Of a stretch of DNA of 64,000 bases, positions 1,472 through 30,641 are shown in pieces (position 1 is the stretch's first letter; every line of letters begins with the position of its first letter). The notes under the pieces are model-generated. The model ran no database searches, was not told the origin of the DNA, and worked only from the letters and a program-made list of their open reading frames with translations. The stretch is from Sporichthya polymorpha DSM 43042 (GTDB taxonomy: Bacteria > Actinomycetota > Actinomycetes > Sporichthyales > Sporichthyaceae), in assembly GCF_000384115.1 (NCBI RefSeq), contig NZ_KB913029.1:1956907-2020906 (forward strand), given 5' to 3'. A program made the translations under genes and the position numbers.

Positions 1472-1960
1472 TCAGCCCCCGGCCGGCGGGTCGGTGGTGT
1501 AGGCGGTGCAGTCGCTGTTCGCGGGCTGCAGGCCGCCGGCGTCGCTCTTCCAGACGTAGCCGTTCGTGGTCTCCGAGCCCTTGGTGCTGACGACCTGGAC
1601 ACAGAACGCGGTCACGGCGCCGTTGTACTTGATCGCCTTGACCCAGTTGTTCGGCGAGAGCTTGACGGTCTCACCGGCGATGACGATCGACCCACCGGTG
1701 CTCGTCGCAGAGGTCGTGTTCGTGATCTCCGGCGCGTTCGGGTACGCGGCGGTGTCGGTGAACGCCGTCTCGAGGGCGGTGGCGACGCTGCGGACGTCGG
1801 ACTTGACCGAGGCGTCGGCGGCCTTCTTGCGCTGGTTGAGGAAGATCGGGATCGCGACCGCGGCGAGGATGCCGATGATCACGATGACGACCAGGAGTTC
1901 GATGAGGGTGAAGCCCTTGTCGTTCTCCCGGTTCAGGGACTTGCGGAGTGCGGTGTACAT
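1472..1960 (-). CDS. pilA: Type IV major prepilin PilA (copy 1)
   Basis: A 162-residue pilin precursor. The leader (about 16 residues, MYTALRKSLNRENDKG) ends at the class III cleavage site G|FTLIE with Glu at +5. It is followed by the long hydrophobic helix LLVVIVIIGILAAVAIP and a variable Thr-rich globular head. Two cysteines (AFCVQV and NSDCTAY) probably form the C-terminal D-region disulfide. PilD should process it and PilB/PilC polymerise it. AGGGAG lies just before ATG. The first 140 bp are identical in DNA to the second pilA gene, while the heads differ. Its own WhiG-like promoter and hairpin terminator indicate a monocistronic unit. Confidence 0.95.
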   Translation of the reverse strand: MYTALRKSLNRENDKGFTLIELLVVIVIIGILAAVAIPIFLNQRKKAADASVKSDVRSVATALETAFTDTAAYPNAPEITNTTSATSTGGSIVIAGETVKLSPNNWVKAIKYNGAVTAFCVQVVSTKGSETTNGYVWKSDAGGLQPANSDCTAYTTDPPAGG

Positions 1961-2212: not shown

Positions 2213-2710
2213 CTAGCGGATGGCCTGCGTGTACACAGCCGTGTCGCAAGCCGTGACCGAGGCCGGCTGGAGGCCGCCGGCGTCGCTACGCCAGACGAAG
2301 CCGGTCGCGTTCGAGCCCTTGCTGCTGACGATGCGGACGCAGAACGCGGTAGCGGACGCAGCGGCGGCGTTGTAGCGGACCTCGGCGACGGTGTTGTTCG
2401 GCGACAGGCGGACCTGCTCGCCGGCAACGGAAAGCGTGCCACCGGCCACGGGCAGGGTGCCGAGCTCGGTTGCCCCGGTGCCGGCTGCCGGGTAGGCAGC
2501 GTTGTCGGTGAAGGCCGTCTCCAGCGCGGTGGCGACGCTGCGGACGTCGGACTTGACCGACGCGTCAGCAGCCTTCTTGCGCTGGTTGAGGAAGATCGGG
2601 ATCGCGACCGCGGCGAGGATGCCGATGATCACGATGACGACCAGGAGTTCGATGAGGGTGAAGCCCTTGTCGTTCTCCCGGTTCAGGGACTTGCGGAGTG
2701 CGGTGTACAT
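2213..2710 (-). CDS. pilA: Type IV major prepilin PilA (copy 2)
   Basis: A 165-residue prepilin with the same leader, G|FTLIE cleavage site and transmembrane helix as copy 1, and a different head (residues about 60-165). Cysteines in AFCVRI and TACDTAV are placed as in copy 1. Bases 2571-2710 are identical to 1821-1960, including silent positions, which suggests recent duplication or gene conversion. A WhiG-like promoter lies at 2801-2829. Two major pilins could form alternative or mixed filaments. Confidence 0.95.
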   Translation of the reverse strand: MYTALRKSLNRENDKGFTLIELLVVIVIIGILAAVAIPIFLNQRKKAADASVKSDVRSVATALETAFTDNAAYPAAGTGATELGTLPVAGGTLSVAGEQVRLSPNNTVAEVRYNAAAASATAFCVRIVSSKGSNATGFVWRSDAGGLQPASVTACDTAVYTQAIR

Positions 2711-3052: not shown

Positions 3053-3526
3053 GTGGCCGCAGTCCCCGAAGGTGACGGAGCCAACAGGCAGCGAACGCGT
3101 CGTGGAGCTCGCGACGCGGGGTTCAGCCTGGTGGAGATCATCGTCGCCCTGAGCGTGTTCGCCGTGCTCGCGGTCGCGTGCGTGACGATCGCCGTCGACT
3201 CGCTGCACACCGCCGGGGACAACCGCGACCGCGTCCGGGCGGCCAACCTCGCCTCCGCCGAGATCGAGCGGAGCCGCGCGCTGTTCCGCGTCTCCCGCGG
3301 CTCGATCCCGGAGACGACGCAGACGACGACGAAGAATGTCGACGGCATCGGGTACACGGTCGAGCGCCGCGCCACCTGGCTGGACACCGCCGGCCGCGAC
3401 GCACACCCGACCACCGGCGTCTCGTACACCGCGGCGACCGGCAACGTGCTGCGCGTCGAGGTCTCGGTCCGCTGGCCCTCGCTCGGCGACCGGCCACCCG
3501 TCATCAACGCGACGGTGCTGTCGTGA
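3053..3526 (+). CDS. PilV-like minor prepilin, module A
   Basis: A 157-residue minor pilin. Its leader ends at the prepilin site AG|FSLVE, followed by the helix IIVALSVFAVLAVACVTIAVD and a short beta-rich head. GTG 3053 is chosen over ATG 3026 because GGAG lies at the right distance (3043-3046) and the leader is then about 24 residues. It is the first gene of module A (V-W-X order) and its stop overlaps the next start (GTGA). Minor pilins of this type prime filament assembly and decorate the tip. Leader, helix and 'AANLASAEIERSRALFR' fit the PilV/GspI group. Confidence 0.85.
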   Translation: MAAVPEGDGANRQRTRRGARDAGFSLVEIIVALSVFAVLAVACVTIAVDSLHTAGDNRDRVRAANLASAEIERSRALFRVSRGSIPETTQTTTKNVDGIGYTVERRATWLDTAGRDAHPTTGVSYTAATGNVLRVEVSVRWPSLGDRPPVINATVLS

Positions 3527-4194
3527 GGCGGGCCGTCATGAAGCAGGTGCGTCGGGACGCCGGGCTCTCGCTGATCGAGGTGATGGTCGGCGTCGTCATC
3601 TTCACCGTCGTCGGGGGGCTGCTCACGACGCTCGTCATCGACATGCTCCGCAGCAGCGCCGGCACCAGCTCCCGGCTCACGGGCGTGAACAGCGTCCGCG
3701 TCGCGCTCGACGCGGTGACGAAGAGCCTGCGGACCGCGGTCCGCCCCGAGCAGATCAACTCCGCCTGCGCGACGAACTGCGACTCCGCGTTTCTGACGGC
3801 CGGGTCGAACTCGGTCACCTTCTACGCCAACTACGGCGAGGCCGGGAAGGCGCAGTTGACGACCTATCGCGTCGAGGCCGACCCCGACCACGCCGGCACC
3901 GCCCGCCTGGTCGAGGAGACATTCGCCGCGGCGGCGCCGGGCGGATCGCCGTCGACGACCTGCGGGGTCGGCTGCACGAAGCGCGTCCTCGCGCGCGGTC
4001 TGACCTGGCCGCTCACCGCGACCGACCCGGTCTTCGACTTCGCCGACGAGCACTGCGCGGACTTTGACGCCGTTGTCCCGCTCACCCGGATCTCCTGCGT
4101 GCTGATCGATGTGCCGATTGCGGGTTCGCAGCTGGACAAAGGCACCAGCGCCACCGCGACCGTGTTCCTGCCCAACTCCGTGATGGGACGCTGA
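3523..4194 (+). CDS. PilW-like minor prepilin, module A
   Basis: A 223-residue minor pilin with class III signal DAG|LSLIE (Leu instead of the usual Phe at +1, which PilD tolerates) and helix VMVGVVIFTVVGGLLTTLVI. The head contains 'VALDAVTKSLRTAVRPEQ', the PilW/GspJ-type 'D-x-x-x-R-x-L-R-x-A' helix, and paired cysteines (ACATNC, CGVGC, HCAD, ISCV). GTG 3523 overlaps the previous stop; ATG 3538 is an alternative. It forms a coupled unit with the upstream PilV-like and downstream PilX-like genes. Confidence 0.85.
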   Translation: MRRAVMKQVRRDAGLSLIEVMVGVVIFTVVGGLLTTLVIDMLRSSAGTSSRLTGVNSVRVALDAVTKSLRTAVRPEQINSACATNCDSAFLTAGSNSVTFYANYGEAGKAQLTTYRVEADPDHAGTARLVEETFAAAAPGGSPSTTCGVGCTKRVLARGLTWPLTATDPVFDFADEHCADFDAVVPLTRISCVLIDVPIAGSQLDKGTSATATVFLPNSVMGR

Positions 4195-4196
4195 CG

Positions 4197-6242
4197 ATGC
4201 TTCAGTTCTTGTCGAAGCGACGTTTCCGCCGTAACCGGGGCGACGGCGGCTATGCGCTGTTGCCGGTCGTCGGCCTCGGCACGGCGATCGTGCTCACGGT
4301 CGGCGTCGTCGGCGGTTATGCCGTGCAGGGCATGCAGAGCTCCGGACGGTCCCAGGGCTTCAACGCCGCGATCCAGGCCGCCCAGGCCGGTGTCGACGAC
4401 TTCGTCGCCAAGCTGCGCGCCAACCCGAGCCTGACCACCGCGACGACCACGGCGTGGACGCCGATCGCCGGCTCCGTCGACGGCGCCGGCAACACGTGCA
4501 CCGGGACCGACGCGACGCTGCCGCCGAACTGCCCGCGCTTCAAGTACAGCGCGGTCCCGGCGGGTGGCGAGTGGACCGTGACGGCCACCGGGAAATCCCG
4601 CGGCCAGGAGCGGACCGTGAAGGTGACGCTGAAGAAGCGCGGCTTCACCGACTACCTGTACTTCTCCGAGAGCGAGGCGGCGGACCCCAACGACCGCCTC
4701 GCGTACCCGAACATCCCGCTGCTCGGGCTGACCGGCGCGCCGGCGGGGTGCCAGTACAAGTCGTGGTCCGAGAACGGGCAGCCGACCCGGCCGGCCTCCG
4801 GGTGCGTCCTGCCGAGGTGGCGGGCGGACGACAGCACCGACGGCAGTCGCGTGCATACCCGTGACGTCTTCCGCGCGACGGGGTCGCCGTCGTTCAACAG
4901 CCTCGTGAGCGCGTCGACGCCCACCTGCGCCACGTCCGCGTCGAACTGCGTCGTGGGTGGCTCGCCGAGCTACGGCAAGGGCAACCCCAGCTACGCCGAC
5001 GACCTGACGATGCCGACGGTGCTGACCTCCGACATCGCCGCGGCGGCCGCCACCGCGACCGGGTGCACGTACTCCGGCCCGACTCGCATCAAGTTCCTCG
5101 AGGGGGCCAACGCCGGGAAGATGCAGGTCTGGAGCCCGTACTCGACGTTCGCGACCACCGCGGACCGCGACCGGTGCATGGGCGGTGCGGCGCCGAACCT
5201 GCTCGGGCTCAACCTCGACATCAAGGTGCGGACGGGTTCCGGTGGCAACCTGAACATCGTCAGCGGCCTGCTCGGGGGGCTGGCGAACCTCTTGCTCGGC
5301 ACCACGTGCCTACTGCTCGGCCTCGGCTGCCCGAGCACGGTGAACCTCTCGCTGAGCAACATCCTCTCCGGGAACCTGCTCGGTGACCTCACCTCGGGAA
5401 TCCTCCCCTCGAACCCCACACCGGTCGCCATCCCGAGCGCGATCTACGTTCAGGACCTCGCGTCGCCGCCCCCCGGCCTCACCGCCACCGTGCAGTGCCT
5501 GCTGGGTTCGGCCGCCGGCCTCGGGCTCTACAACCTCGACGTCGCCGCCACGGTGAACGGCGCCCTGCTCTCGCCGTCCGACTGCCGCGCCGCCGACGTG
5601 CGCGTCAGCGGCAAGTACCAGGGCAAGACCACGATCGGCACCGAAGGCAAGATCACGATCCTGAGCGACCTCACGGCCACCACGGAGAACGACCGTCTCG
5701 GCCTGGTCGCCGACGGGCCGGTCGAGGTCTACAACTCGCTGCAGTGCCTGCTCTCGCTCGGCACCTGCGCGTCGCTGAGCGACCTGTCGGGTCTCGTCCC
5801 CAGCGTGCTCGGGCTGCTCAACAGCGGGTCCATCACGCACCTGCAGCTGACCAACGTGCTGAACTCGCTCGGGATCAACAAGCCGGTGACCGTCGACGCG
5901 GCCATCGTCACGGGCGGCCATTTCGGCGTGCAGATGCCGCTGCTCAGCCCGGTCGCGAACGTCAGCCTGCTCAACAACCTGATCGCGATCAACATCGATC
6001 CGCCGACCCTGCAGCTCAACGGCTCGCTGGCCCAGCGGTACAAGGGCATCATGGCGGCCGACCTGCTGAAGCTCGGCGTGAACGCCCTGGGCATCGACGT
6101 CGCCGGCGCCGGCGTCGACATGGGCTTCGACTTCAAGATGAAGTACAACAGCAAGCTCAAGAGCGACCCCCCGCCGTACCTGCCCGCCCCGGGCGGCGCC
6201 ACGTGGGACCCGCAGACCTTCGCCGAGGTCAAGGCGTCGTGA
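4197..6242 (+). CDS. Large PilX-like pilus assembly protein, module A
   Basis: A 681-residue exported protein. The N-terminus is basic, then GGYALLPVVGLGTAIVLTV, a pilin-like hydrophobic helix without the canonical GF-Glu5 site, as in PilX/GspK-type tip subunits. The segment AAIQAAQAGVDDFVAKLRA is shared with the 580-residue paralogue at 13416. The large ectodomain contains 'GPTRIKF' and 'VWSPYS', also shared with that paralogue, and a Leu/Gly-rich central region (about 340-420). ATG follows the previous stop by 2 nt. Probable tip or adhesin subunit of a pilus complex; binding target unknown. Confidence 0.8.
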   Translation: MLQFLSKRRFRRNRGDGGYALLPVVGLGTAIVLTVGVVGGYAVQGMQSSGRSQGFNAAIQAAQAGVDDFVAKLRANPSLTTATTTAWTPIAGSVDGAGNTCTGTDATLPPNCPRFKYSAVPAGGEWTVTATGKSRGQERTVKVTLKKRGFTDYLYFSESEAADPNDRLAYPNIPLLGLTGAPAGCQYKSWSENGQPTRPASGCVLPRWRADDSTDGSRVHTRDVFRATGSPSFNSLVSASTPTCATSASNCVVGGSPSYGKGNPSYADDLTMPTVLTSDIAAAAATATGCTYSGPTRIKFLEGANAGKMQVWSPYSTFATTADRDRCMGGAAPNLLGLNLDIKVRTGSGGNLNIVSGLLGGLANLLLGTTCLLLGLGCPSTVNLSLSNILSGNLLGDLTSGILPSNPTPVAIPSAIYVQDLASPPPGLTATVQCLLGSAAGLGLYNLDVAATVNGALLSPSDCRAADVRVSGKYQGKTTIGTEGKITILSDLTATTENDRLGLVADGPVEVYNSLQCLLSLGTCASLSDLSGLVPSVLGLLNSGSITHLQLTNVLNSLGINKPVTVDAAIVTGGHFGVQMPLLSPVANVSLLNNLIAINIDPPTLQLNGSLAQRYKGIMAADLLKLGVNALGIDVAGAGVDMGFDFKMKYNSKLKSDPPPYLPAPGGATWDPQTFAEVKAS

Positions 6243-6259
6243 CCGATGAGCGCTGAGGC

Positions 6260-6592
6260 GTGAACCTCGTCGGCATCTGCGTGGCGGCGGCGACGGTGGG
6301 CGTGCTCACCGCCGTCGTCGCTTCCGCCGCCCCGCGGTGGACCTCGGACGCTCAGGATCGGGCCGAGCAGGCCGAACGGCAACTCGTGCTCCGGGACGCG
6401 CAGCAGCGGGCGGTGGGAGAGGACCGACCCATGTGCGTCGAGCGCGAGTCCGGCCGTTGGACCGTGCGACCCGCGGAGTGCGACGTCGACAGCGCCGGCA
6501 CCACCGTCTTTCCGGACGGATCGGTCACGGCGGGACGAGACGTGATCAACACTGCTCCGAGGTTCAGATCACCGACGCATCGGCCGAAGTAA
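6260..6592 (+). CDS. GspH-like remnant or short exported protein
   Basis: A 110-residue protein with an N-terminal hydrophobic segment (GICVAAATVGVLTAVVAS) and a tail including RDAQQRAVGEDRPMCVE. This echoes LLRQTQQRAVTEGRTLCID in the GspH-like pseudopilin encoded next. It lacks the G|F-x-x-x-E prepilin signal, so it looks like a diverged or degenerate duplicate of its neighbour that can be membrane-anchored but perhaps not processed. It starts with GTG 15 bp after module A. Confidence 0.6.
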   Translation: MNLVGICVAAATVGVLTAVVASAAPRWTSDAQDRAEQAERQLVLRDAQQRAVGEDRPMCVERESGRWTVRPAECDVDSAGTTVFPDGSVTAGRDVINTAPRFRSPTHRPK

Positions 6593-6647
6593 CCCGTGAC
6601 GCGGATGCACCGCCGCGTCCCGACACGAGGTCAGGCCGGGAGCCGCA

Positions 6648-7151
6648 GTGATGGGGAACGTCGCGAGGAGAGTCCGCGCGTCGAGCGGCTCCGCCGCGGG
6701 CTTCACCCTGGTCGAGCTCTGCTCAAGCTTGATGATCTTCGGGATTCTCTCCGCCATCGGCGTCACGACGCTGCACAGCTGGACCGCCGGGTCCCGGCAC
6801 ACCGCGACCACCTCCGCCCTTGAGGCGCTGCTTCGTCAGACCCAGCAGCGGGCGGTGACCGAGGGCCGCACTCTGTGCATCGACTTCGACCTCGCGGCGC
6901 AGAGCTGGTCCGTCCTGCGCGGATCCTGCACGGGTACCGGGCAGGTCCTGATCGACGGGCCGATCCGCGTCGAGGACGGGGTGCGTATCGCCTCCGCGAC
7001 GTTCGCCGCCGGTGCCTCGACGATCGACGGGATCACCTTCTATCCGCGGGGCACGGCCACGCCGGGCTCGATCACGATCACCCGTGAGGGATCGGACCGG
7101 GTCGACACCCTGACCGTGGAGGGCCTCACCGGACGGGTGGCCCGTGACTGA
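6648..7151 (+). CDS. GspH/FimT-like pseudopilin, module B
   Basis: A 167-residue pseudopilin with cleavage site AAG|FTLVE, hydrophobic helix LCSSLMIFGILSAIGV and a GspH-type beta-rich head (about 45-167) containing the family's 'ALLRQTQQRAVTEGR' helix and one cysteine pair (LCID, GSCTG). Starts are GTG 6648 or ATG 6651. The stop overlaps the GTG of the next gene. GspH/FimT proteins are minor tip pseudopilins, and FimT homologues in some naturally competent bacteria bind DNA. No competence genes are seen here. Confidence 0.85.
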   Translation: MMGNVARRVRASSGSAAGFTLVELCSSLMIFGILSAIGVTTLHSWTAGSRHTATTSALEALLRQTQQRAVTEGRTLCIDFDLAAQSWSVLRGSCTGTGQVLIDGPIRVEDGVRIASATFAAGASTIDGITFYPRGTATPGSITITREGSDRVDTLTVEGLTGRVARD

Positions 7152-8955
7152 GCTACGTCGGGTGGGACGGTGGCAGCGACTGCGGCGGCGCTTCGCGCTG
7201 CGGCGCTCCGACGCCGGGTTCAGCCTCTTCGAGGTCGTTGTCGCGATCACGCTGCTCGGCATCACCATGGCCGCGGTCGGACCGCAGATGATGGCGTCGA
7301 TCCGCGCCTCCGGGAACGCGAAGCTCGCCTCCCAGGCGAAGGGCCTGCTCCAGGGTCATCTGGACGCCATGCGCACCCTGCCGTTCCGCGTCACGCCGAC
7401 CGCCGGTGACCACCGCGATCTGCTCGACACCTACTTCCGCAACGTCAGCGCGCCGACGACGGCGCCGTCGTGCGGGACGGGAACTCCGAACCCGCCGCAG
7501 GCGAGCTGGAGCGGGTACGTCTCCGCGAGCAGCACCGCGCGCTGTTCGTACGAGCCGGCGGGCGTCCCCATGTACCGCAAGGTGTTCGCGCCGGGCACCG
7601 GAGACATGCCACCGAGCTTCGCGATCGTCCTCAACACCTCCTTCGTCTCGCCCGGCACCACGCCGTTGGTGCTCACGCCCCCGGCCGGCTTCGACAGCCA
7701 GGTCGCAGGCAAGGACCGGCCGCCGTCCTCGCAGGTCGGCGTCACGGCCACCGTGCTCTACCGCGACCACGACCGCTGGAAGCCGGTGACGGTCTACACG
7801 CAGATCGCGTCGCGCACGCCCTCGGAGACGCGCCTCAAGCTCGACGCGCAGGGCACCGCGATCGAGGTCGGGTCGGCCCGGTCCAACGGGGAGAACATCA
7901 CCCTGACCGGCGGGATGCTCGACCTCTCCGGCTCGCTCTCCACGACCAGTTCCGCCCGCGCGAACCTGACCGCGATGACCGCGTCGAGTTCGCTGACCGG
8001 ACGTCAGTCCGGGGCGGCGCTGTCGGTCTCGGCGCCGTACACGAACATCGCGAACCTCAACGCGTCCGTCGGATCGCTCGGTTCCGGGTGCTCCGACCCG
8101 TGCTGGACCGCCACCGCCATCACCCCGTTCGTGCTCGCGGCCGACAACGGCCTGCCGCGGGCCGGCGTGAACGGCCTGGCCGGGTTCCTCAACCCGGTGC
8201 AGACCGTCAGCGTCGACGGGTTCTCGTTCCGGGCCGAGGCGCCGACCCTCCCCGGTCTCGAGCCGGACCGGCCGCTGGTCTACGTGAACGCGCTGCCGAC
8301 GGTGGGCAGCCTCCTGCCGGACGTGCTCGGCAGCCTGTACAACTGCGCGTTCAGCGTGACCGCGCCGCTGTCCCGCATCACCGGCAGCGGTTACATCAAC
8401 AGCACCGACGAGCAGGCGCCGTCCAATCCCCTGTCGGCCGAGGCCTGCGGCGGCGCGCACGCGAGCGTCGTCCGCGTGCTGCCGACCGCGCAGGCGCCGG
8501 ACGGTCTCATCCGCATCACCGCGCGTTCGGCCGCCCGGTGCCGGGTCACCGGTGTCGCGCACACGGCGAGCACGGAGGTCAGCTACCGCGCCGACGTCGA
8601 GTACTGGAAGTGGACGCCGGTCCTGGACCTGTTCGGCAAGCCGCTGCTCGGCCTCGGCGTCGGCCAGTACGTCCACGCCGGGACCATCACGCCGAACACG
8701 ACGGAGGACCCGCTCGCGGCGATCCCGCTGAGCACGCCGGTGAGCAACGACCACGAACTGGGTGACTACATCGAGTCCCTGACGGGGTTGACCAAGGACC
8801 GCGTCACGAACGTCGCGGCCAACCACGTCGCCGAGGTGACGATCCCGGCGCTGGTGAACGTCCAGACCCAGCCGGTGGGCGGGGCGTCGGCGCCGTCGAC
8901 GGCGGTCTCCATGGCGGTCGGCGCCTCCAGCTGCCGTGCCGAGGACAACCGATGA
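7144..8955 (+). CDS. Long PilV-like minor prepilin, module B
   Basis: A 603-residue prepilin-like protein, several times the usual PilV length. The leader ends DAG|FSLFE, followed by helix VVVAITLLGITMAAVGPQMM. 'ASQAKGLLQGHLDAMRTLPF' is the helix typical of PilV/GspI. The remaining about 530 residues are Ser/Thr-rich, beta-predicted and contain cysteines likely to be in disulfides. It has the V position of module B and overlaps both neighbours by a few bases. The large ectodomain suggests an adhesive tip domain; ligand unknown. Confidence 0.8.
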   Translation: MTELRRVGRWQRLRRRFALRRSDAGFSLFEVVVAITLLGITMAAVGPQMMASIRASGNAKLASQAKGLLQGHLDAMRTLPFRVTPTAGDHRDLLDTYFRNVSAPTTAPSCGTGTPNPPQASWSGYVSASSTARCSYEPAGVPMYRKVFAPGTGDMPPSFAIVLNTSFVSPGTTPLVLTPPAGFDSQVAGKDRPPSSQVGVTATVLYRDHDRWKPVTVYTQIASRTPSETRLKLDAQGTAIEVGSARSNGENITLTGGMLDLSGSLSTTSSARANLTAMTASSSLTGRQSGAALSVSAPYTNIANLNASVGSLGSGCSDPCWTATAITPFVLAADNGLPRAGVNGLAGFLNPVQTVSVDGFSFRAEAPTLPGLEPDRPLVYVNALPTVGSLLPDVLGSLYNCAFSVTAPLSRITGSGYINSTDEQAPSNPLSAEACGGAHASVVRVLPTAQAPDGLIRITARSAARCRVTGVAHTASTEVSYRADVEYWKWTPVLDLFGKPLLGLGVGQYVHAGTITPNTTEDPLAAIPLSTPVSNDHELGDYIESLTGLTKDRVTNVAANHVAEVTIPALVNVQTQPVGGASAPSTAVSMAVGASSCRAEDNR

Positions 8956-9617
8956 CCGCGCGGCTGCGCGAGTCGCGGGACCAGGGGTTCACGATCGTCG
9001 AACTCCTCGTCGCGATGGTGCTGACGAGCGTCATCGGGGCGCTGCTGCTCGGCGCCGCTCTCGGCGCTCGCAAGGTCACCGACGACGCGCGGCTCAACAG
9101 CGAGCTCACCGCCGACGTGCGGCGCGCGATGGAGCGGCTCGTCCGCGAGCTGCGCCAGGCCGGCACGCTGCTCCAGGTCGATCTCCCCTCGACGCCGACG
9201 GCGCCAACCGCAATCACCTTCTGGGCGGACTTCGACAACGACGCGCACCAGGACTACGACGCCGCCGACCCGGAGGTCCTCACCTACCGCTACACGCCGG
9301 GGACAGGCCAGATCACGCTGACGGTCAACGACGCGGCCGGTCACGCGGTGACGACGCCGATCCTGGCCGAGAACGTCACCCGGTTCACGCTCTCGCTGCG
9401 CAGCAGCCAGTGGCAGTACGACCGCAACGCCGACGGGATCGTCGACTGGGAGGAGCTGGACGCCACGCCGGCCCCGGTCGGCAACCAGAACGGCAAGCCG
9501 GACGGCGCCGAGCTCGCCCGGATCGACTCCGTCGTGCTGCAGGTCGCGGTGTTCCGCGGCGGGCGGCAGCAGGAGTACCGGACCCAGGTCGACTTCCGGA
9601 ACCGGCACATCGCCTGA
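8952..9617 (+). CDS. PilW-like minor prepilin with EF-hand-type loop, module B
   Basis: A 221-residue minor prepilin with signal DQG|FTIVE, helix LLVAMVLTSVIGALLLGAAL and 'DVRRAMERLVRELRQAG', the PilW-type amphipathic helix. Residues 157-168 (DRNADGIVDWEE) fit the 12-residue calcium-binding EF-hand loop at every key position (D1, N3, D5, G6, V8, E12). A second Asp-rich stretch, DFDNDAHQDYDAAD, lies at 93-106. ATG overlaps the previous stop (ATGA) and the stop overlaps the next start (TGATG). Confidence 0.85.
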   Translation: MTARLRESRDQGFTIVELLVAMVLTSVIGALLLGAALGARKVTDDARLNSELTADVRRAMERLVRELRQAGTLLQVDLPSTPTAPTAITFWADFDNDAHQDYDAADPEVLTYRYTPGTGQITLTVNDAAGHAVTTPILAENVTRFTLSLRSSQWQYDRNADGIVDWEELDATPAPVGNQNGKPDGAELARIDSVVLQVAVFRGGRQQEYRTQVDFRNRHIA

Positions 9618-11062
9618 TGCGGAGATATCTGATGAGACGTCGGCACTCTGCTCGCGGTGCGCGCTTCGGAGAGGCGCGTGACCGCGGCACCGCGATGCTC
9701 ATGACGATGTCGGTCATGATGCTGGTGACGACGCTGGCCGGCGTCGGTGCGACGATGGCGGTGCGGGACATGCGCGGCGCCGGCGAGGCGCAGCAGGCGG
9801 GGCGCGCGCTCGACGCGGCCGAGGCCGGCGTCGCCCAGGCCGTCGCGTACATCCGGGCCAACGGAACGCGCCGAGTCGTCTGCAACCTGACGACTTGTCC
9901 GACGAACCCGTGGAGCGCGTCGAACCCGGTGTCCGCAGAGGTGCGCGGCGGCGGGCGCTGGACCGCCACGATCAAGCCGGTGCTGATCAACAACGGCGAC
10001 GACGGCGACCGCTACGTGGTGCGTTCGACCGGCGTCGCCGGTGGCCCGGCGGAGCGGACCATCGAGGTCGAGGTGACCGTGGCGCCGGTGGACCTCCCCA
10101 AGGGGATCTTCGGGCGCACCGTCAACCTCGGCGGCACCGTCGACCTGCACCAGATCAGCATCTTCAGCACCGGCTGCGTCTACAAGCGCGACAAGGTGGC
10201 GACCCACTTCGAGTCGGGCCTCGACGCCGCCTACGGCGTGCCGGTCGGCGTTCACTCCTCGCAGATCATCACCGAGTCGCAGGGCAGCGGACAGTACTGC
10301 GCGAACACCAACAAGCCGATCCACGGCGGGCTCGACCTGCTCGGCGCCTCGCTCAAGCCGTGCAACAGCAAGTACCCGTACGACCAGGACCGTCTCGGTG
10401 GGGCACTGACCGGGCTGAGCGCGCTGCTCGACCCGCTCGGGCTCTGCGGCGTCGCCGCGGGCCAGACGCCGTACCAGCCGCGCGACCTCGACCTGGACGG
10501 CAAGCTCGACGTCAACGGCTCGTTCCTGCGCGACGACGAGGCGTTGTTCCGGACGTTCAACATCAAGCGGCCGGCGCTGACCGACTCCGAGCTCGAGCAA
10601 TTGAAGACGATGGCGCAGGCGCAGGGCACCTACTACACGTCGACCACCTGGACCGTCCCGGACGGCAGCGTCAACCCGCACACCGTGCTGTTCTTCGACC
10701 TGAACGCGAATCAGACCGTCGACCTCAAGCCGCTCGACGGGTCGCTGTGGTCGCGTGGTCGCATCACCGACGCGAACAGTCCGATGTGCCTCGACGCGTC
10801 GCTGCTGATCGTGGTCCAGGGCGGCAACGCGCGACTGAACGGGAACACCCAGCTCGCGGCGTCGCTGTACCTCTCCGGGGCCGCTCCCGGCGGGCAGCTG
10901 TTCAAAGCCAACGGCACCGCGAACCACATCGGCATGCTTTATGCGGACACCATCGACATGACGGGCACGTTCAACGCCTCGCTCGACGCCTGCTACGTCG
11001 CGAACCCGCCGCCGTCCCTGTTCGACGTGAACCCGGGAACGTACCGCGAGCTCGACCGCTGA
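9617..11062 (+). CDS. PilX-like pilus assembly protein, module B
   Basis: A 481-residue PilX_N-type protein. A basic N-terminus (RRRHSARGARFGEARDR) is followed by a helix (GTAMLMTMSVMMLVTTLAGVG) and 'ALDAAEAGVAQAVAYIRANG', the Ala-rich helix typical of PilX. The ectodomain contains DLDLDGKLDVNG, resembling an EF-hand/dockerin calcium loop but with Gly at position 12. ATG 9617 overlaps the upstream stop; ATG 9632 has a better ribosome site (GGAG at 9621-9624). It closes module B, after which a 189-bp gap with a new promoter separates module C. Confidence 0.8.
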   Translation: MRRYLMRRRHSARGARFGEARDRGTAMLMTMSVMMLVTTLAGVGATMAVRDMRGAGEAQQAGRALDAAEAGVAQAVAYIRANGTRRVVCNLTTCPTNPWSASNPVSAEVRGGGRWTATIKPVLINNGDDGDRYVVRSTGVAGGPAERTIEVEVTVAPVDLPKGIFGRTVNLGGTVDLHQISIFSTGCVYKRDKVATHFESGLDAAYGVPVGVHSSQIITESQGSGQYCANTNKPIHGGLDLLGASLKPCNSKYPYDQDRLGGALTGLSALLDPLGLCGVAAGQTPYQPRDLDLDGKLDVNGSFLRDDEALFRTFNIKRPALTDSELEQLKTMAQAQGTYYTSTTWTVPDGSVNPHTVLFFDLNANQTVDLKPLDGSLWSRGRITDANSPMCLDASLLIVVQGGNARLNGNTQLAASLYLSGAAPGGQLFKANGTANHIGMLYADTIDMTGTFNASLDACYVANPPPSLFDVNPGTYRELDR

Positions 11063-11094
11063 CCGTTCCTTGACATAACCCAAACCTGCGGATC

Positions 11095-11123
11095 CTCAAC
11101 CGGACCAAAGTCCCGACCGACAA
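11095..11123 (+). promoter_or_regulatory. WhiG/sigma-28-like promoter of minor-pilin module C
   Basis: CTCAAC (11095-11100), 15-nt spacer, ACCGACAA (11116-11123) in the 189-bp gap between modules B and C. The predicted leader to ATG 11252 is about 120 nt. Confidence 0.6.
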
Positions 11124-11251
11124 GGCCATTAGCACGGTTGACCCGCACGACGCGCCGTACCGACAAAGGTCACGCCAGGACGGCTGGACCCGGTTCGGAT
11201 CGTTCCCAGGGCGGCGACCTGCGGACACGGATGTCCGACTGGGAGCGAAGC

Positions 11252-12643
11252 ATGTTTTGGCGCAAGGCACGTCGTACCGAGGGGCCGCCCCGCGACCGCG
11301 GGTTCAGCGTGGCCGAGGTCGTCGTGGCGTTCGGGATCTTCGCGATCGTCGGCACCACGGTCTCCACCGGTCTGATCGACGTCATGCAGGTGACCACCGA
11401 CGACCGGAACCGGGTCCGCGCCGCGGCGCTCGCAGCCCGCGAGATCGACATCGCCCGCTCCGCGTTCAACTCCCCGGCGATCGGCCCGAAGCAGGTCGAG
11501 GCCGGCGAGGTCGTCAACCACAACCCGCTGCCCGGTGGGGCGGTCGGTCAGCCGCTGCTGATCGACGGCGTCCCGTTCACCGTGAAGCGCGTCGCCGAGT
11601 GGACGCAGCAGGGGGCGGCGAACGGCCCCTGCGACGTCGACGCGGGCGGGGGCAACGCGCCCCTCGCGTACCTGCGCGTGACGGCCGAGGTGTCGTGGCC
11701 GAACATGGGCTCGACGCAATCGGTGAAGTCGAGCACGCTGCTGACGCCGCCCCTCGGCACCTTCGCCCAGGGCACCGGCCACCTTCGCGTCACGGTCGTC
11801 GACCAGACCGGCGAGCGGGTCGAGGGCCGGCAGGTCACCCTGAACGGGCCAGGCGGCACCGACACCCAGACCACCGCGGACGGGGGCTGTTCCTTCTTCG
11901 CCGGTCTCCCGGTGGGGACCTACACCGCGAGCGTCTCGGCGCCCAACGGGATCGACCGCACGACCTGGGGGCCGAGTTCGACGCAGACGGTCACGGTTCT
12001 CGCGAACGCCATCGCGCAGGCGAACCTCGCTTACGCCACCGCGGCCGACGTCGAGGCCGCGCTCGCGCCCAGCCTGCCGGAGTTTCCCCCGGCGAAGAAC
12101 ATCCCGTTGACCGCGGCGAACACGGCCTTCACGCCGAACGGTCGTCGGGTTCTGCCCGGGGACGGACCGATCCGGAGCTTCCGCGCCTGGCCCTTCCCGG
12201 ACGGCATCGACCTGTGGGCCGGCTCGTGCAACGACGCCGACCCGATCGTGACCGGCGGCGAGCGCCAGGATCCCGTCGTGCTCACGCCGGGGACGTCGAC
12301 GACCGCCAACGTGCCCCTGGTGCCCGTCACGGTGCACGTGCGCCTCGCGCTGTGGCTGCTCGCCGTTCCCGATGCGTCGGTCTACGCCGTGCACGCCAAG
12401 GACCAGAGCACGGGCTGCGCGACCACCGTCAGCGATCCAGTCAGTGGCGGGTCGGGCGCGGGAGAGGTGCTGGAGCTGCCGGTGAAGACCGATTCCTCCG
12501 GGATGGTTCGCATTTCGCTTCCCTACGGCCGTTGGCAGATCAAGGTGAAGAACTTCCTGCCCCACCTCGGTGGCTGGCCGACGATCGACCTCCGGGCCGA
12601 CCAGCCCGGGCCCCAGGTCGTGACGGCGAACGTATTGCTGTGA
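11252..12643 (+). CDS. PilV-like prepilin with Cna-B/CarboxypepD_reg-type repeat, module C
   Basis: A 463-residue prepilin-like protein. The leader ends DRG|FSVAE, followed by helix VVVAFGIFAIVGTTVSTGLI and the PilV-type 'RAAALAAREIDIARSAF'. Residues about 170-235 (from GHLRVTVVDQTG, with an aromatic-Gly-Leu-Pro-x-Gly-x-Tyr turn, FAGLPVGTYT) look like a carboxypeptidase-regulatory/Cna-B beta-sandwich, the stalk domain of Gram-positive surface adhesins. A further Ig-like region is likely at the C-terminus. ATG 11252 is chosen for GGGAG at 11241-11245. The stop overlaps the next GTG. Likely function is tip display or adhesion. Confidence 0.8.
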   Translation: MFWRKARRTEGPPRDRGFSVAEVVVAFGIFAIVGTTVSTGLIDVMQVTTDDRNRVRAAALAAREIDIARSAFNSPAIGPKQVEAGEVVNHNPLPGGAVGQPLLIDGVPFTVKRVAEWTQQGAANGPCDVDAGGGNAPLAYLRVTAEVSWPNMGSTQSVKSSTLLTPPLGTFAQGTGHLRVTVVDQTGERVEGRQVTLNGPGGTDTQTTADGGCSFFAGLPVGTYTASVSAPNGIDRTTWGPSSTQTVTVLANAIAQANLAYATAADVEAALAPSLPEFPPAKNIPLTAANTAFTPNGRRVLPGDGPIRSFRAWPFPDGIDLWAGSCNDADPIVTGGERQDPVVLTPGTSTTANVPLVPVTVHVRLALWLLAVPDASVYAVHAKDQSTGCATTVSDPVSGGSGAGEVLELPVKTDSSGMVRISLPYGRWQIKVKNFLPHLGGWPTIDLRADQPGPQVVTANVLL

Positions 12644-13419
12644 CCACCATGATGATGATCCGTCAGTTGCTGGCCGGACTACGTCGCCGCCACGGCGACC
12701 GGGGTATCACGCTCGTGGAGATCATGACCTCGACCGTGCTGGCCGCGACGCTCGGCGGCATGGTGACCATGCTCGTGATCAGCACGCAACGGCAGACGGC
12801 CGCGGGCGAGATCCGCATGGCCGACCTCGACTCGGCCCGCGTCGGCATGGACGCCCTGACCCGCGTGCTGCGCACCGCGGTGCAGCCCGCGCAGCTCCAG
12901 GTCGGGTGCGGCAGCTGCATCGGACCGGCGTCCGTGTCGACCGCGCTGACGGCGGCGGAGGGCGACCGGCTGCAGTTGTTCGCGAACCTCGGTGACCCGA
13001 CCGGGCCGTTCCTGATCACCTTCGCCGCGGAGGAGGAGAACGGGAAGTGGGTGCTGACCCAGAAGACCCAGCGTCCGGACGTCGGCAGCGCGCCGAACTT
13101 CCGCTACACGCCGTGCATCCCGAAGCAAGCCGGGTGTCGGATCAGCGTCCGTACCCTCGTGCGCGGGCTGGACTGGCCGTCTCCGACACCGATGTTCGTG
13201 TACCGCGACAACGCCGCCGACGTGCTCACCCCGCCGGGGGCTCGCCCGGGCCTGACGCCGGATCAGCTCCTGATTGTCGACTCGATCGACATCACCCTGC
13301 CGGTCCGTACCCCGAACGGTGTCGGTGCCGGCGGGTTCCTGTCCGCAACCCGCGTGACACTGCCCAACGCCTCCACGTCCGTGCTCGCCACGGCCGTTCC
13401 GGTGCCAGAGCCGTCATGA
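12640..13419 (+). CDS. PilW-like minor prepilin, module C
   Basis: A 259-residue minor pilin with signal DRG|ITLVE (Ile at +1), helix MTSTVLAATLGGMVTMLVI and 'RVGMDALTRVLRTAVQPAQLQ', which aligns with the module A protein (RVALDAVTKSLRTAVRPEQIN). It also shares a Cys-x-x-Cys pair (CGSC against CATNC) and the later 'TLVRGLDWP' / 'VLARGLTWP' motif, so the two are clear paralogues. The GTG start overlaps the previous stop, and the stop overlaps the next ATG. Confidence 0.85.
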   Translation: MTTMMMIRQLLAGLRRRHGDRGITLVEIMTSTVLAATLGGMVTMLVISTQRQTAAGEIRMADLDSARVGMDALTRVLRTAVQPAQLQVGCGSCIGPASVSTALTAAEGDRLQLFANLGDPTGPFLITFAAEEENGKWVLTQKTQRPDVGSAPNFRYTPCIPKQAGCRISVRTLVRGLDWPSPTPMFVYRDNAADVLTPPGARPGLTPDQLLIVDSIDITLPVRTPNGVGAGGFLSATRVTLPNASTSVLATAVPVPEPS

Positions 13420-15158
13420 CGGAACGCCTGCGCGCACTGCTGGAGCGCCATCGCCGCAACGACGCCGGCATGAGCATGATCCTCGTGCTCGGCTACGGGA
13501 CCATTCTCTCGCTCATGCTCGGCCTACTGACCGACCGAGCGATCGAGTCGATGTCGGACGCGCGGCGCAGCACCGACTACCACGCGGCGCTCGCAGCCGC
13601 CCAGGCCGGCGTCGACGACTACGTCTCGCGCCTGAATGCCAACAACGTCTACTGGCAGACTCTCGACTGCTCGAACCTCGCGATGCGCCGGCCCCTGGGC
13701 GGAGCTTGCGGGTGGGGGGCGAGCACTGCGATCGGATGGGTTCCGGTGCCCGGAGCCCGCGACCCGAAGGGCGTCCTCTGCTCCACCACGCCGACCCCGC
13801 TGAACTGCGCGCGTTACCACTACGAGGCGGACACCTCGTCGACCGGGACGAACGGCTCGATCACCGTGGTGTCGACGGGGAAGGTGCGCGACGAGACGCG
13901 CACGGTCCGGGTCGTCGTGCAGCGCAAGGGTTTCGGTGACTTCCTCTACTACTCCGACATCGAGTCCACGGACCCGGCGAACACCTACGTGTACGACGGC
14001 AACCCGATGAGCAGCTCGCAGGCGGCCGTGTACTGCGCGCGCTACTACTGGGGCTCGCCGGCGCGGAACTCGTCCTGCCAGGACATCCAGTTCATCACCG
14101 GTGACCGCATCAACGGCCCGCTGCACAGCAACGACGCGATCCTGCTCCAGGGCAACCCGGTGTTCGCCGGCACCGCCTCGACCGCGTGGCCGAACTGCGC
14201 GCCGAGCTCGAACGGCAAGCCCAAGCCGGTCGCGAACTGCTACCGCGCGAACGGCACGGCGAACCCGACCTTCGCGCGCAGCCTCACCTACCTCGGCATG
14301 ATCACGCTGCCGCCGTCGAACACCAGCCTCCGCTCCCAGACCGTGGCCGCCACCAGCGTCGGCACCCCTGGATGTCTGTTCACGGGACCGACCCGGATCA
14401 AGTTCGAGTCGAACGGCAAGATGCGGGTCTGGAGCCCGTACACCCTGACCAGCCCGGCCACCTGCGGCGGCAACAAGCCGGACAACGTCCAGGTGAACGT
14501 GCCCGACAACAACGTGATCTACGTGCAGAACCTGCCGGCGACGCAGTCCTCGCCGAAGGCCAGTGCCGCGTGCAGCGTCAAGACCCTTCTCGACCTCACC
14601 ACCGCGTCCAACCCGGACAACTCCGTCGCGAAGTACTCCTGCCGGGACGGGAACGCGTTCGTCAGTGGAATCCTCAAGGGCCGTGTGACGATCGGTGCCG
14701 ACAACAACATCTACGTGACGGACAACCAGACCTACGCCACCGGCCACAACGGCAACGACAGTCTCGGGCTGGTCGCGAACAACTCGGTGCTGATCTGGCA
14801 CCCGATGTCCTGCAACTCGTGCGACACCATCAACGAGCTGCGTGGCGCCACGGATCTGTACCCGAACCGGCCGAAGACCTTGAAGCTGGAGGCCGCGATC
14901 CTCTCCCTGCAGCACAGCTTCGGCGTCGAGCTCTACAACATGGGCGCACCGCTGGACAACCTGCAGGTGTACGGCTCGATCTCGCAGAAGTACCGCGGGG
15001 CGGTGGGGACGACCGGGTCCGGATGGCGGACCGGGTACCTCAAGGACTACAACTACGACACCCGCCTGCGGTACGCCCCGCCGCCGTTCTACCTCAACCC
15101 GGTGCAAACCGCGTTCGGCCAGGCCACGTTTGCGGAGATCCCCGCCGCGTACTCCTGA
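13416..15158 (+). CDS. PilX-like pilus assembly protein, module C
   Basis: A 580-residue paralogue of the 681-residue module A protein. The basic start is followed by AGMSMILVLGYGTILSLMLG and 'ALAAAQAGVDDYVSRLNA'. Shared downstream motifs include RTVRVVVQRKGFGDFLYYS (KVTLKKRGFTDYLYFS in module A), GPTRIKF and VWSPYT. It has many Cys and Asn residues, consistent with a disulfide-rich secreted domain. It lacks a canonical prepilin site, like the other X subunits. Last gene of module C. Confidence 0.8.
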   Translation: MTERLRALLERHRRNDAGMSMILVLGYGTILSLMLGLLTDRAIESMSDARRSTDYHAALAAAQAGVDDYVSRLNANNVYWQTLDCSNLAMRRPLGGACGWGASTAIGWVPVPGARDPKGVLCSTTPTPLNCARYHYEADTSSTGTNGSITVVSTGKVRDETRTVRVVVQRKGFGDFLYYSDIESTDPANTYVYDGNPMSSSQAAVYCARYYWGSPARNSSCQDIQFITGDRINGPLHSNDAILLQGNPVFAGTASTAWPNCAPSSNGKPKPVANCYRANGTANPTFARSLTYLGMITLPPSNTSLRSQTVAATSVGTPGCLFTGPTRIKFESNGKMRVWSPYTLTSPATCGGNKPDNVQVNVPDNNVIYVQNLPATQSSPKASAACSVKTLLDLTTASNPDNSVAKYSCRDGNAFVSGILKGRVTIGADNNIYVTDNQTYATGHNGNDSLGLVANNSVLIWHPMSCNSCDTINELRGATDLYPNRPKTLKLEAAILSLQHSFGVELYNMGAPLDNLQVYGSISQKYRGAVGTTGSGWRTGYLKDYNYDTRLRYAPPPFYLNPVQTAFGQATFAEIPAAYS

Positions 15159-16982: not shown

Positions 16983-18200
16983 TTACTGGATGAGGTCGAA
17001 GATCTTGAAGATCGGGAGGTACAGGGCGACGATCATCGACCCGACGACGGTGCCGAGGAAGGCGATCATCAGCGGCTCGATGAGGGCGGTCAGAGACTCG
17101 GTGGTCGCCTCGACCTCCTGGTCGTAGAACTCGCCGATCTTGCCGAGCATGTCGTCGAGGGCGCCGGTCTCCTCACCGGAGGCCATCATGTGCACGACCA
17201 TCGACGGGAAGACCTCGTGCTGGCTGAGCGGGCCGGAGATGGACTCACCGGACTTCACCGAGTCCTTCACCTGCTCCAGGGCGCGACTGATGACGACGTT
17301 GCCGCTGGAGTCACCGGTGATCTCGAGGGCGGTGAGGATCGGGACGCCGGACTTGAGCAGCGTGCTCAGCGTCCGCGCGAACCGGGCGAGCGCGACCTTC
17401 TGGAAGAGCTTGCCGAAGACGGGCAGCTTCAGCTTGAGCGGGTCGACGACGTTGCGCACCTGCTCGGTCTGGCCGTACTTCCGCCAGGCCCACAGGCCGG
17501 CGACGGTGAGGATCGCCAGCATCGGTGCCAGGAACTTCATCCATCCCGAGAGCGTGACGAGGATTCGCGTCGGGAGCGGCAGGGTGCCACCCAGGGTGGC
17601 GAACATGTCCTTGAAGATCGGCACGACGAACAGCAGCATGCCGATGACCATGAGGATGGCGAGGATCAGTACGACGACCGGATAGGTCATCGCGGCCTTG
17701 ATCTTGCCGCGGAGCTTGACCTCGGACTCGAAGTTGTCGGCGATCTGACGCATGCTCTGGTCGAGGAAGCCGCCGGCCTCACCGGCACGGACCATGCTGA
17801 CCATCAGCGGCGGGAACACCTTGGGGTGCTTCGCGAACGCTGCCGAGATCGACGAGCCGGCTTCGACGTCGGTCTTCACCAGGCGCAGGACGCGCTTGAG
17901 CTCACCGTTCTCCGACTGCTCCGACAGGATCGTCAGCGTGCGCAGCATCGACAGGCCCGCGTTGATCATCGTCGCGAACTGGCGCGAGAAGATCGCGAGA
18001 TCCTTGAGCTTCACGCGCTCGCGACCGAACAGGCGGATCTCCCGGTCCAGACCGGTGTTCGCCTGCTTGATCTCCAGCGGGCGGTAGCCCATCGACCGGA
18101 GCTTGTCGGCGACCGCGCTCTCGCTGTCGGCCTCGACCTTGCCCTCGACCAGCTTCCCGCGGTTGTCCTTGACCTTGTACGCGTACTGCGTTGCTGCCAT
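16983..18200 (-). CDS. pilC: Type IV pilus inner-membrane platform protein PilC
   Basis: A 405-residue T2SSF/PilC-family platform protein. Two T2SSF repeats are visible: the first from about residue 68 (LAIFSRQFATMINAGLSMLRTL) with GEAGGFLD, the second from about 270 (ARTLSTLLKSGVPILTALE) with GEETGALDDML. Hydrophobic segments are near 165-190, 215-235 and at the C-terminus (about 370-400). The N-terminus YAYKVKDNRGKLVEG is the standard PilC start. It couples the PilB and PilT motors to the growing filament. It lies 53 bp downstream of pilT on the same strand. Confidence 0.95.
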   Translation of the reverse strand: MAATQYAYKVKDNRGKLVEGKVEADSESAVADKLRSMGYRPLEIKQANTGLDREIRLFGRERVKLKDLAIFSRQFATMINAGLSMLRTLTILSEQSENGELKRVLRLVKTDVEAGSSISAAFAKHPKVFPPLMVSMVRAGEAGGFLDQSMRQIADNFESEVKLRGKIKAAMTYPVVVLILAILMVIGMLLFVVPIFKDMFATLGGTLPLPTRILVTLSGWMKFLAPMLAILTVAGLWAWRKYGQTEQVRNVVDPLKLKLPVFGKLFQKVALARFARTLSTLLKSGVPILTALEITGDSSGNVVISRALEQVKDSVKSGESISGPLSQHEVFPSMVVHMMASGEETGALDDMLGKIGEFYDQEVEATTESLTALIEPLMIAFLGTVVGSMIVALYLPIFKIFDLIQ

Positions 18201-19543: not shown

Positions 19544-19566
19544 GCGAGGGCCTTCCGTCGACGCAG

Positions 19567-19603
19567 GACTGAGGTGATGCGCGGAATGCACATCACCTCA
19601 GTC
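19567..19603 (-). terminator. Hairpin in pilT1 leader (possible attenuator or MMPL terminator)
   Basis: Perfect 13-bp stem GACTGAGGTGATG (19567-19579 with 19591-19603) and an 11-nt loop. It lies after the MMPL gene and immediately downstream of the candidate pilT1 promoter, so it would be the first structure in the pilT-pilC transcript. It could terminate MMPL read-through, shape the leader, or both. Confidence 0.6.
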
Positions 19604-26407: not shown

Positions 26408-26412
26408 GATCC

Positions 26413-26982
26413 TCAGTGTGGCAGCGCGGAGAGCGCAGCGGCCGGGTTCTCGCGGTATCGCAGGATGAGTTCGGCCGTGGCCTCGTCGATGCGCTCGAAC
26501 AGCGCCTTCCGGTAGGCGGTCAACTTGTGCTCGGCGGCGCGGAGTTTCTCCTGCGCCTCCGCGAGCGCGGCCGGGTCGTGCGGGTCGACCTCGGTGACCC
26601 ACATGTCCGCGGTCTCCGGCAGGTCCGGCAGCGGGGCGGACGGGTGGACGGCGGACAGCGCCGTGCGGCTGGCGCCGCTGCCGGTGTCGCCGAGCACGCG
26701 GATCAGCTGGTCGACCGAGAGGGTGCCCTCGGTGTGCGAGCCGGCTTCGAGCATGTCGAGGCGGGCGTGCACCAGACGCCGCCAGTAGGAGACGCGGTCC
26801 TCCTCGTCCTGGAGGTCGCGCCGGTACACCCGCAGCGCCGCCAGGTCCAGGTCCGCCAGATGCGGTGCGGCCACCAGCTCGCCGGTGCCGCGCTTCGTCC
26901 GCCGGCCCTCGTCCATCCCCACCCCGTTCCGGGACGCCGCCCGGGCCCTCGGAAGTCCCGGCCGTTCGTTTCCGTTCTTCAT
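26413..26982 (-). CDS. rsiG: RsiG-like c-di-GMP-responsive anti-sigma factor for WhiG
   Basis: A 189-residue helical protein. RsiG binds c-di-GMP with two E(X)3S(X)2R(X)3Q(X)3D motifs, one per helix of an antiparallel coiled coil, and then sequesters WhiG. Here motif 1 is E61-S65-R68-H72-D76 (within EDRVSYWRRLVHARLD) and motif 2 is E151-T155-R158-F162-D166 (EHKLTAYRKALFERID). Spacing is exact, with Gln replaced by His and Phe, and Ser by Thr in motif 2. The ATG overlaps the pilT2 stop (ATGA) and the stop lies 5 bp before pilB, so it is embedded in the pilus motor operon. whiG is 8 kb away. ATG at residue 23 is an alternative start. Confidence 0.8.
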   Translation of the reverse strand: MKNGNERPGLPRARAASRNGVGMDEGRRTKRGTGELVAAPHLADLDLAALRVYRRDLQDEEDRVSYWRRLVHARLDMLEAGSHTEGTLSVDQLIRVLGDTGSGASRTALSAVHPSAPLPDLPETADMWVTEVDPHDPAALAEAQEKLRAAEHKLTAYRKALFERIDEATAELILRYRENPAAALSALPH

Positions 26983-28205: not shown

Positions 28206-28256
28206 AGCTGTCGGCGCAGGGAGCGTGGCCGCCCCGACCTCCAGGAGACAAGCACG

Positions 28257-29375: not shown

Positions 29376-29376
29376 C

Positions 29377-30639: not shown

Positions 30640-30641
30640 GC

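Follow-up and report, generated by a model that had tools for sequence, protein, structure and literature searches.

It is not yet understood why type IV pili take on such a range of tasks. Two reports on Myxococcus xanthus describe three FimU-V-W-X-PilY1 clusters that accompany one major pilin and one pilus machine; cluster_1 or cluster_3 alone suffices, and the clusters are expressed differently in development (PMC7541494, PMC13190605). In Thermus thermophilus, ComZ binds DNA; the report names GspK and an ice-binding protein as similar in fold to its two domains; its authors argue that ComZ fits the tip only (PMC6561018). The RsiG-WhiG switch of Rubrobacter, which responds to cyclic di-GMP (c-di-GMP), is thought to control type IV pilus (T4P) genes (PMC8325347). 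Here, a type IVa pilus (T4aP) locus of the actinobacterium Sporichthya polymorpha DSM 43042 is described, in which three consecutive sets of minor-pilin genes lie beside the machine genes. The analysed window comprised 64,000 nucleotides (GCF_000384115.1, contig NZ_KB913029.1, positions 1,956,907 to 2,020,906) of a genome of 5.5 Mb on a single contig. The three sets probably encode three separate tip or priming complexes of one T4aP, sharing one machine.

Gene content of the locus

The window held a full T4aP locus with two major pilins, three minor-pilin triplets, PilC, PilB, two PilT-like ATPases, PilM-N-O, PilD, an RsiG-like protein and a sigma factor (Table 1). All nine genes of the PilV-PilW-PilX-like triplets were open at the positions given in the initial annotation, 3053-6242 (module A), 7144-11062 (module B) and 11252-15158 (module C), and the GspH-like gene reported ahead of module B, H, was recognised by its family model. 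It gives module B a GspH/FimU member, which modules A and C lack. A small GspH-like open reading frame (ORF) that the initial annotation had passed over, S (6260-6592), lies between A and B. Overlaps of GTGA or ATGA had been described inside each module. They were present at VA/WA and VC/WC (GTGA) and at VB/WB and WC/XC (ATGA), but not elsewhere: WB and XB overlapped by 1 base, H and VB by 8 bases, and WA and XA were separated by a 2-base gap. From module A through S and H to module B, gaps did not exceed 55 bases; 189 bases lay upstream of module C.

A prepilin motif with Glu5 was readable in all six V and W proteins. The family PF07963 was matched above its cut-off of 21.2 bits in VA, WA, VB and WB, and H (16.0 bits), VC (16.7 bits) and WC (14.1 bits) scored below it with a readable motif. 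None of the three X proteins carried Glu5 (G/YALLP, G/TAMLM and G/MSMIL). Glu5 is likewise missing from tip pilins of the GspK/PilX kind, among them GspK of the type II secretion system (T2SS). The PilX_N family (PF14341) reached E 0.15 in XB, under the cut-off, and did not match XA or XC; an NCBIfam search gave no match for XA, XB, VC, WC and XC. Family models thus recognised little past the N-terminus of the V, W and X proteins.

Comparison of the modules by blastp bore out the view that A and C are clear paralogues and B is more distant. XA and XC were homologous over their full length, with 26% identity over 730 columns (E 1.6e-51), and shared the annotated motifs GPTRIKF and VWSPY; WA and WC, with ARGLTWP and RGLDWP respectively, were 29.6% identical (E 6e-24). 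VA matched VC with E 4e-14 and VB with E 8e-8, and WA matched WB with E 9e-5. The match between XA and XB (E 2e-9) was confined to the pilin part, and XB and XC showed no match over noise (best E 0.36).

Genome-wide searches pointed to a single machine. The T2SSF family had 10 matches in five genome loci, and two such domains in one PilC occurred only at the pilus locus; the other four loci look like putative TadB/TadC pairs. All 6 genome matches to the N-methyl prepilin family sat in the pilus locus. Since the genome encodes one T4aP-type PilC, one T4aP machine would serve the three triplets. The proposal of three tips on one machine is upheld as far as this sole platform protein goes, the sharing itself being what we infer from it. 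A 138-amino-acid (aa) protein without a Pfam match at 0.01 was encoded beside the pilA genes (960-1376, minus strand), and similar-looking counterparts adjoin pilA in loci L020, L021 and L022.

Two lineages of tip sets

The X tree was calculated from 63 rows, after 15 of 76 had been dropped beforehand (duplicates, cut genes, 'GSIML' and odd types) and two XC rows had been added. XA and the single X of G002, a genome of the sister genus, formed a clade with 100/100 support, which joined XC at 100/96. The closest outsider to XC was the single module of G054. XB was one of eight members of a further clade with 100/100 support, which come from G015, G149, G036, G169, G037 and the host genus. The W tree (54 rows, with loci of 17 names left out) repeated the A group (98) and the B group (96).

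The distribution of H followed that of XB. Among 94 loci, eight scored at least 160 bits with the H profile, and the remaining loci at most 46.7 bits; seven of these eight were seeds of the profile, and the non-seed L149 scored 160. The eight genomes with a strong-H locus are also those with a B-type X, and in G149 and G169 the H-V part and the X part lie on separate contigs. Outside the B type, the H profile found no GspH/FimU-type H in class loci. In other families, a B-type set is the sole set beside pilA, for example in L147 and L150. Judging from the trees and the H profile, A and C go back to an early duplication of the common V-W-X type, and module B is a separate H-V-W-X lineage that was here joined to two V-W-X copies.

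Distribution, gain and loss of modules

An X profile built from four XA-type and two XC sequences matched 63 of the 393 class genomes searched, with only the best 3-4 candidates per genome being scored. The host's order was represented by five genomes. Stretches were fetched around most genomes with X-profile matches and around the B-type matches, which gave the 94 loci. X genes were counted there with the full-length X profile, used instead of an N-terminal motif count that misses both XC copies (window and G003). One X was present in 80 loci and none in 10, which were cut contigs or held other genes. Three were present in the window and in G003, two in G004, and L088 had one plus a spurious 30-bit shadow over W. 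The 84 loci with X comprised 81 distinct ones, as three locus pairs had the same X. Their flanks reached 4 kb on both sides in 47 and about 8 kb in 29, so that distant or unlinked extra modules are possible in other genomes; in G149 and G015, for example, an additional X or V-W-X-like set was located on different contigs. Loci of the class normally hold a single triplet, and more than one was present only in the window and in its congeners G003 and G004. Another V-W-X-like set, with an X starting GSIML or GSVVM and mostly without a typical pilA adjoining, occurred in L148, L154, L156, L161, L169 and L171; it perhaps belongs to a different type IV filament.

The comparison with related genomes that had been proposed as a check revealed a series of module contents. 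The sister-genus genome G002 held A only, G004 of the same genus held A and B with a scar of C, and G003, also of the same genus, held A, B and C. In G001, of the genus of G002, a contig edge cut off all but the tail of an A-type X, and B was not matched. Between XB and the next gene of G004, 21 codons matched XC residues 559-579 with 17 identities (E 4.8e-6); with the last 60 XC residues as query, 24 residues matched at 75% (E 3.6e-8). This relic implies that module C was once present in G004 and was then deleted down to its last codons. Judged by this scar, modules are lost whole, as cassettes. As the lone G002 module falls with A rather than with C, module C was probably lost on the G002 branch as well. 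A scheme with B as the core and A and C as extras was ruled out by G002, which holds A alone.

Two further gene differences were noted around the modules. A 305-aa gene between XC and a GAF gene (15228-16145) is missing in G003 and G004 (comparison with L020 and L021); its apparent first and last codons remain in G003. This is another deletion of cassette type, next to module C. The S frame has an in-frame stop two codons upstream of its start, and this stop precedes the expected start of the mature pilin, which leaves S without a leader. In G003 (L020, reverse strand, about 9628-9960) the frame continues without a stop across a leader-like stretch, which overlaps the end of XA, and no S ORF was seen in G004. 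S may be a copy of H that is decaying or has been repurposed.

Ratios of nonsynonymous to synonymous divergence (dN/dS) between the window genome (G000) and G003 were calculated by the Nei-Gojobori method with our own script; as whole-gene averages in GC-rich DNA, they are rough. They amounted to 0.31, 0.15 and 0.18 for VA, WA and XA, to 0.13, 0.13, 0.07 and 0.13 for H, VB, WB and XB, and to 0.17, 0.12 and 0.12 for VC, WC and XC. S had a value of 0.39. All ten pilin genes thus appear to be under purifying selection, and the three modules look kept. Synonymous divergence from G003 (L020) was 0.17-0.19 for VA and XA and 0.35-0.59 for the other genes of the block, and a recent exchange of the 3053-6242 stretch is possible.

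Predicted folds of XC and VC

The fold results for the X proteins cover the XC copy. Its model was calculated from 9 sequences, with a predicted local distance difference test score (pLDDT) of 61 and a predicted template modelling score (pTM) of 0.62, and showed a pilin part joined to a second, beta-rich one. In a Foldseek search the top three matches were all Thermus thermophilus ComZ chains (E 7e-6 to 2.9e-4), and the next match had E 0.75. Alignment to ComZ with VIA-align gave Z 12.1 with 322 aligned residues and a root-mean-square deviation (rmsd) of 10.1. Residues 172-550 aligned with the ice-binding beta-helix protein 5uyt (Z 9.0, 179 aligned), and the pilin part with XcpV/XcpW (Z 5.6). 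With moderate confidence, XC is predicted to consist of a GspK-like pilin domain plus a ComZ-type beta-solenoid.

The VC model (pLDDT 70) comprised a pilin part, which aligned with a chain of the XcpGHIJK pseudopilin with Z 8.1, and three C-terminal beta-sandwiches, the first of which resembled CnaB/transthyretin domains (Z about 10). The V of the G002 module is 567 aa long and carries repeated SLPYGxW-like segments; compared with VA, which is without extra domains, this indicates that the length of the V arm varies. The isoelectric points (pI) of the outer parts were 6.3 for XA, 5.3 for XB and 8.6 for XC.

Regulatory genes

The locus holds an RsiG-like gene and a sigma-factor gene (34205-34921), which we take to be of FliA/WhiG type from its size and place. 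Both kinds of gene are also present in the G001 locus. The c-di-GMP motif E(X)3S(X)2R(X)3Q(X)3D, which the monomeric form of RsiG carries twice, was read by eye in the RsiG-like protein as two deviating copies: copy 1 has H for Q, and copy 2 has T for S and F for Q. WhiG promoters (TAAA / GCCGATAA, at most 2 mismatches) numbered 0 in the 64 kb window, and a scan for sigma-70 promoters and terminators gave no excess over shuffles. A candidate site, TCAA-N16-ACCGACAA, lies before module C and is also present in G003; it differs from the published consensus by three mismatches, and the pattern was fitted after the site had been seen. It is taken as a lead only. Module C, with 189 bases upstream and A-S-H-B closely spaced, may be controlled separately. 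By analogy, the RsiG-like protein and the sigma factor possibly form a c-di-GMP switch for T4P as in Rubrobacter. Flagellin genes are present elsewhere in the genome (G000:C1 near 978536, E 3.4e-46), so a flagellate stage probably exists alongside T4P.

Table 1. Features of the type IVa pilus locus in the window, with the basis of their assignment
Feature	Position	Strand	Basis
PilA1, major pilin	1472..1960	-	GFTLIELLVV prepilin motif; PF07963 E 3.5e-10 (own-genome search)
PilA2, major pilin	2213..2710	-	as PilA1: prepilin motif, PF07963
VA, GspI/PilV-like minor pilin, 157 aa	3053..3526	+	PF07963 E 1.6e-6; gspI TIGR01707 E 2e-5, below cut-off
WA, PilW/GspJ-position minor pilin	3523..4194	+	PF07963 E 2.1e-5; in a clade with W of G002
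XA, GspK/PilX-position tip pilin, 681 aa, no Glu5	4197..6242	+	homology to XC; tree
S, GspH-like ORF without leader peptide	6260..6592	+	29% identity to H, E 6e-12
H, GspH/FimU-like minor pilin associated with module B	6648..7151	+	PF12019 E 4.8e-11; H profile
VB, PilV-position minor pilin, 603 aa	7144..8955	+	PF07963 E 9.3e-6
WB, PilW-position minor pilin	8952..9617	+	PF07963 E 1.6e-6; B clade
XB, GspK/PilX-position tip pilin, no Glu5	9617..11062	+	XA/XC profile E 6.9e-8; B clade 100/100
Candidate sigma-WhiG/FliA-type promoter before module C	11096..11123	+	TCAA-N16-ACCGACAA; lead only
VC, PilV-position minor pilin	11252..12643	+	CarboxypepD_reg E 1.5e-7, just under cut-off; model
WC, PilW-position minor pilin	12640..13419	+	29.6% identity to WA, E 6e-24
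XC, tip pilin with predicted beta-solenoid, no Glu5	13416..15158	+	model; best Foldseek match ComZ 6qvi, E 7e-6
PilC platform protein	16983..18200	-	PF00482 E 4e-70; sole T4aP-type one in genome
PilT-like ATPase 1	18254..19591	-	PF00437 E 1.3e-46
PilB extension ATPase, MshEN domain	24722..26602	-	PF00437 E 3.8e-140; PF05157 E 3.7e-18
RsiG-like (c-di-GMP-armed anti-sigma) protein	26413..26982	-	PF22802 E 1.1e-18; next to PilB
PilT-like ATPase 2	26979..28031	-	PF00437 E 2.1e-50
PilM, PilN, PilO	28185..31322	+	PF11104 E 7.6e-40; PF05137 E 4.3e-6; PF04350 E 3.8e-7
PilD prepilin peptidase	32510..33376	+	PF06750 E 1.9e-34; PF01478 E 1.3e-8
Sigma factor, regions 2, 3 and 4	34205..34921	-	PF04542, PF04539, PF04545; past PilD

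Discussion

That the three modules form separate tip complexes is well supported by the comparison of genes and genomes. That these tips are alternatives is likely, and the switchable adhesion suggested in the initial annotation is a hypothesis. For each triplet as a tip complex speak the gene content and order of GspI-J-K (PilV-W-X) and the X and W trees, which agree on the lineages of A and B and set C apart from these two. In the proposed mechanism, V, W and X would join via their N-terminal helices in the membrane and start the filament, so that they would end at its far tip: the trimer would form first, prime PilA polymerisation and ride outward. X and V would turn their bulky beta-rich regions outward as a binding head, as suggested by the family; for this locus, the head model is based on gene content, the missing Glu5 and the modelled folds of XC and VC. 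PilY1 (PF05567) was not found in the genome, the control genomes being silent too, and the head is therefore likely to be X itself with V. Module B would use H as a GspH/FimU-like adaptor, and A and C would do without one. All three modules would share the PilB/PilC/PilMNO/PilD machine and both major pilins, and one machine with three trimers would yield pili with one of three heads. Tip choice would probably be set by expression, perhaps via the sigma/RsiG pair of the locus, and the most likely use would be attachment to different surfaces or ligands. The modelled X fold is as suggestive of a ComZ-like receptor as of an adhesin.

Several observations weigh against this interpretation. Adhesion is suggested by domain types and by nothing else, and both genomes with module C (2 of 2) also held the other two modules. 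WC had no firm place within the common type of the W tree. The XC model is moderate (pLDDT 61, with a poor helix region), and its rmsd to ComZ is about 10 Å. VA lacks the C-terminal beta domains of VC, so module A may be a partial set. In comparison with G004, the solenoid part did not evolve consistently faster: identities of the pilin part versus the rest were 71% versus 48% in XA and 58% versus 70% in XB.

A bolder version of the three-tip interpretation would have the tips of a Gram-positive type IV pilus be interchangeable, as three ComZ-like solenoid receptor complexes of two separate lineages, carried next to one machine in PilY1-free cassettes that are gained and lost whole between species, with the choice made by life stage via a sigma/anti-sigma c-di-GMP pair. 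One pilus would then serve attachment, cell-cell contact and DNA capture. As a whole, this is tentative and has a modest chance of being correct.

DNA capture also stands on its own as a rival. At least one tip would be a ComZ-like DNA receptor for natural transformation, with a solenoid X that binds DNA and PilT motors that pull it to ComEA/ComEC. The closest solved fold to XC is indeed the DNA-binding ComZ, the genome encodes ComEC (E 2.4e-50) with an HHH_3 match (E 9.2e-22) about 3.7 kb away, the locus has two PilT-like genes, and the outer part of XC is basic. A shared fold, however, proves no function, the outer parts of XA and XB are near neutral or acidic, and ComEC and HHH_3 proteins matched in most control genomes too, which makes their presence weakly informative. 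The likeness to ComZ together with ComEC and the nearby HHH_3 match keeps this explanation alive, though we consider it unlikely.

Co-assembly of subunits from different modules in a single bigger tip, such as VA together with XC, or heads of A and C stacked on a base of B and H, appears improbable. The modules are adjacent, with the close spacing from A to B, H is present in B only and VA is short, all of which would fit such a complex. An obligate mixed complex, named in the initial annotation as the finding that would contradict separate tips, is argued against by the lone A of G002, by A and B with the scar of C in G004, by other families in which a B-type set is the only one next to pilA, and by single-module loci being the rule. 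W and X of A moreover share one history in the trees, as do W and X of B.

Equally improbable is that only one module works and the others are leftovers being lost after duplication or acquisition. The deletion of C in G004 with its scar, the broken look of S and the missing small gene after XC in G003 agree with decay, but dN/dS lies at 0.07-0.31 across the ten pilin genes and two species keep three modules. A T2SS-like secretion pseudopilus with several tips in place of surface pili is very improbable: where minor pilins matched a named family, GspH, GspI and similar ones came closest, but minor pilins of T4P commonly resemble these, and the locus has two PilT-like ATPases, PilM-N-O, PilD and major pilins with FTLIELLVV.

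Separate tips on one machine would extend the multi-tip idea from myxobacteria to monoderms. The natural series in one bacterial family (A; A and B with the scar of C; A, B and C) offers a way to ask about tip function at a constant machine, and two actinobacterial types of tip set, V-W-X and H-V-W-X, are defined that family databases hardly recognise.

Comparison with known systems

The Rubrobacter switch resembles the present locus in its RsiG-like and sigma genes, which here lie within the T4P locus; it differs in that the c-di-GMP motif deviates here and the window has no promoter within 2 mismatches of the consensus. The T2SS pseudopilus tip GspI-J-K with GspH has the same gene set and order, and its Xcp members match the folds of the pilin parts; here there are three sets, a pilus machine and not a secreton, and much larger V and X proteins. 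PilA-PilB-PilC of Streptococcus sanguinis are likewise minor pilins with adhesive-type domains on a monoderm T4aP; they form a single set with other added domains, von Willebrand factor A (vWA) and lectin-like (PMC6916266).

ComZ-PilA2 of Thermus thermophilus, a proposed tip receptor, shares a GspK-like pilin with an inserted beta-solenoid that adjoins other minor pilins (PMC6561018). It is a single set of a DNA-uptake pilus, and its relation to X was not detectable in sequence: a profile search of Protein Data Bank (PDB) sequences with the X alignment returned 0 matches.

Closest are clusters 1-3 of Myxococcus xanthus, also three full minor-pilin clusters with coupled genes and low inter-cluster identity on one T4aP machine. 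This tested precedent means that the multi-tip kind is already known and that the form described here is a variant of it. Unlike in M. xanthus, the host is an inferred monoderm, the sets stand in tandem at the machine's own locus, FimU/GspH is present in one module, no PilY1 was found (with silent controls) and the head would consist of X with its solenoid and V with its beta-sandwiches. As far as our searches of the open-licence PMC literature show, where it was not found, the tandem, two-lineage, apparently PilY1-free and solenoid-headed form in an actinobacterium is new.

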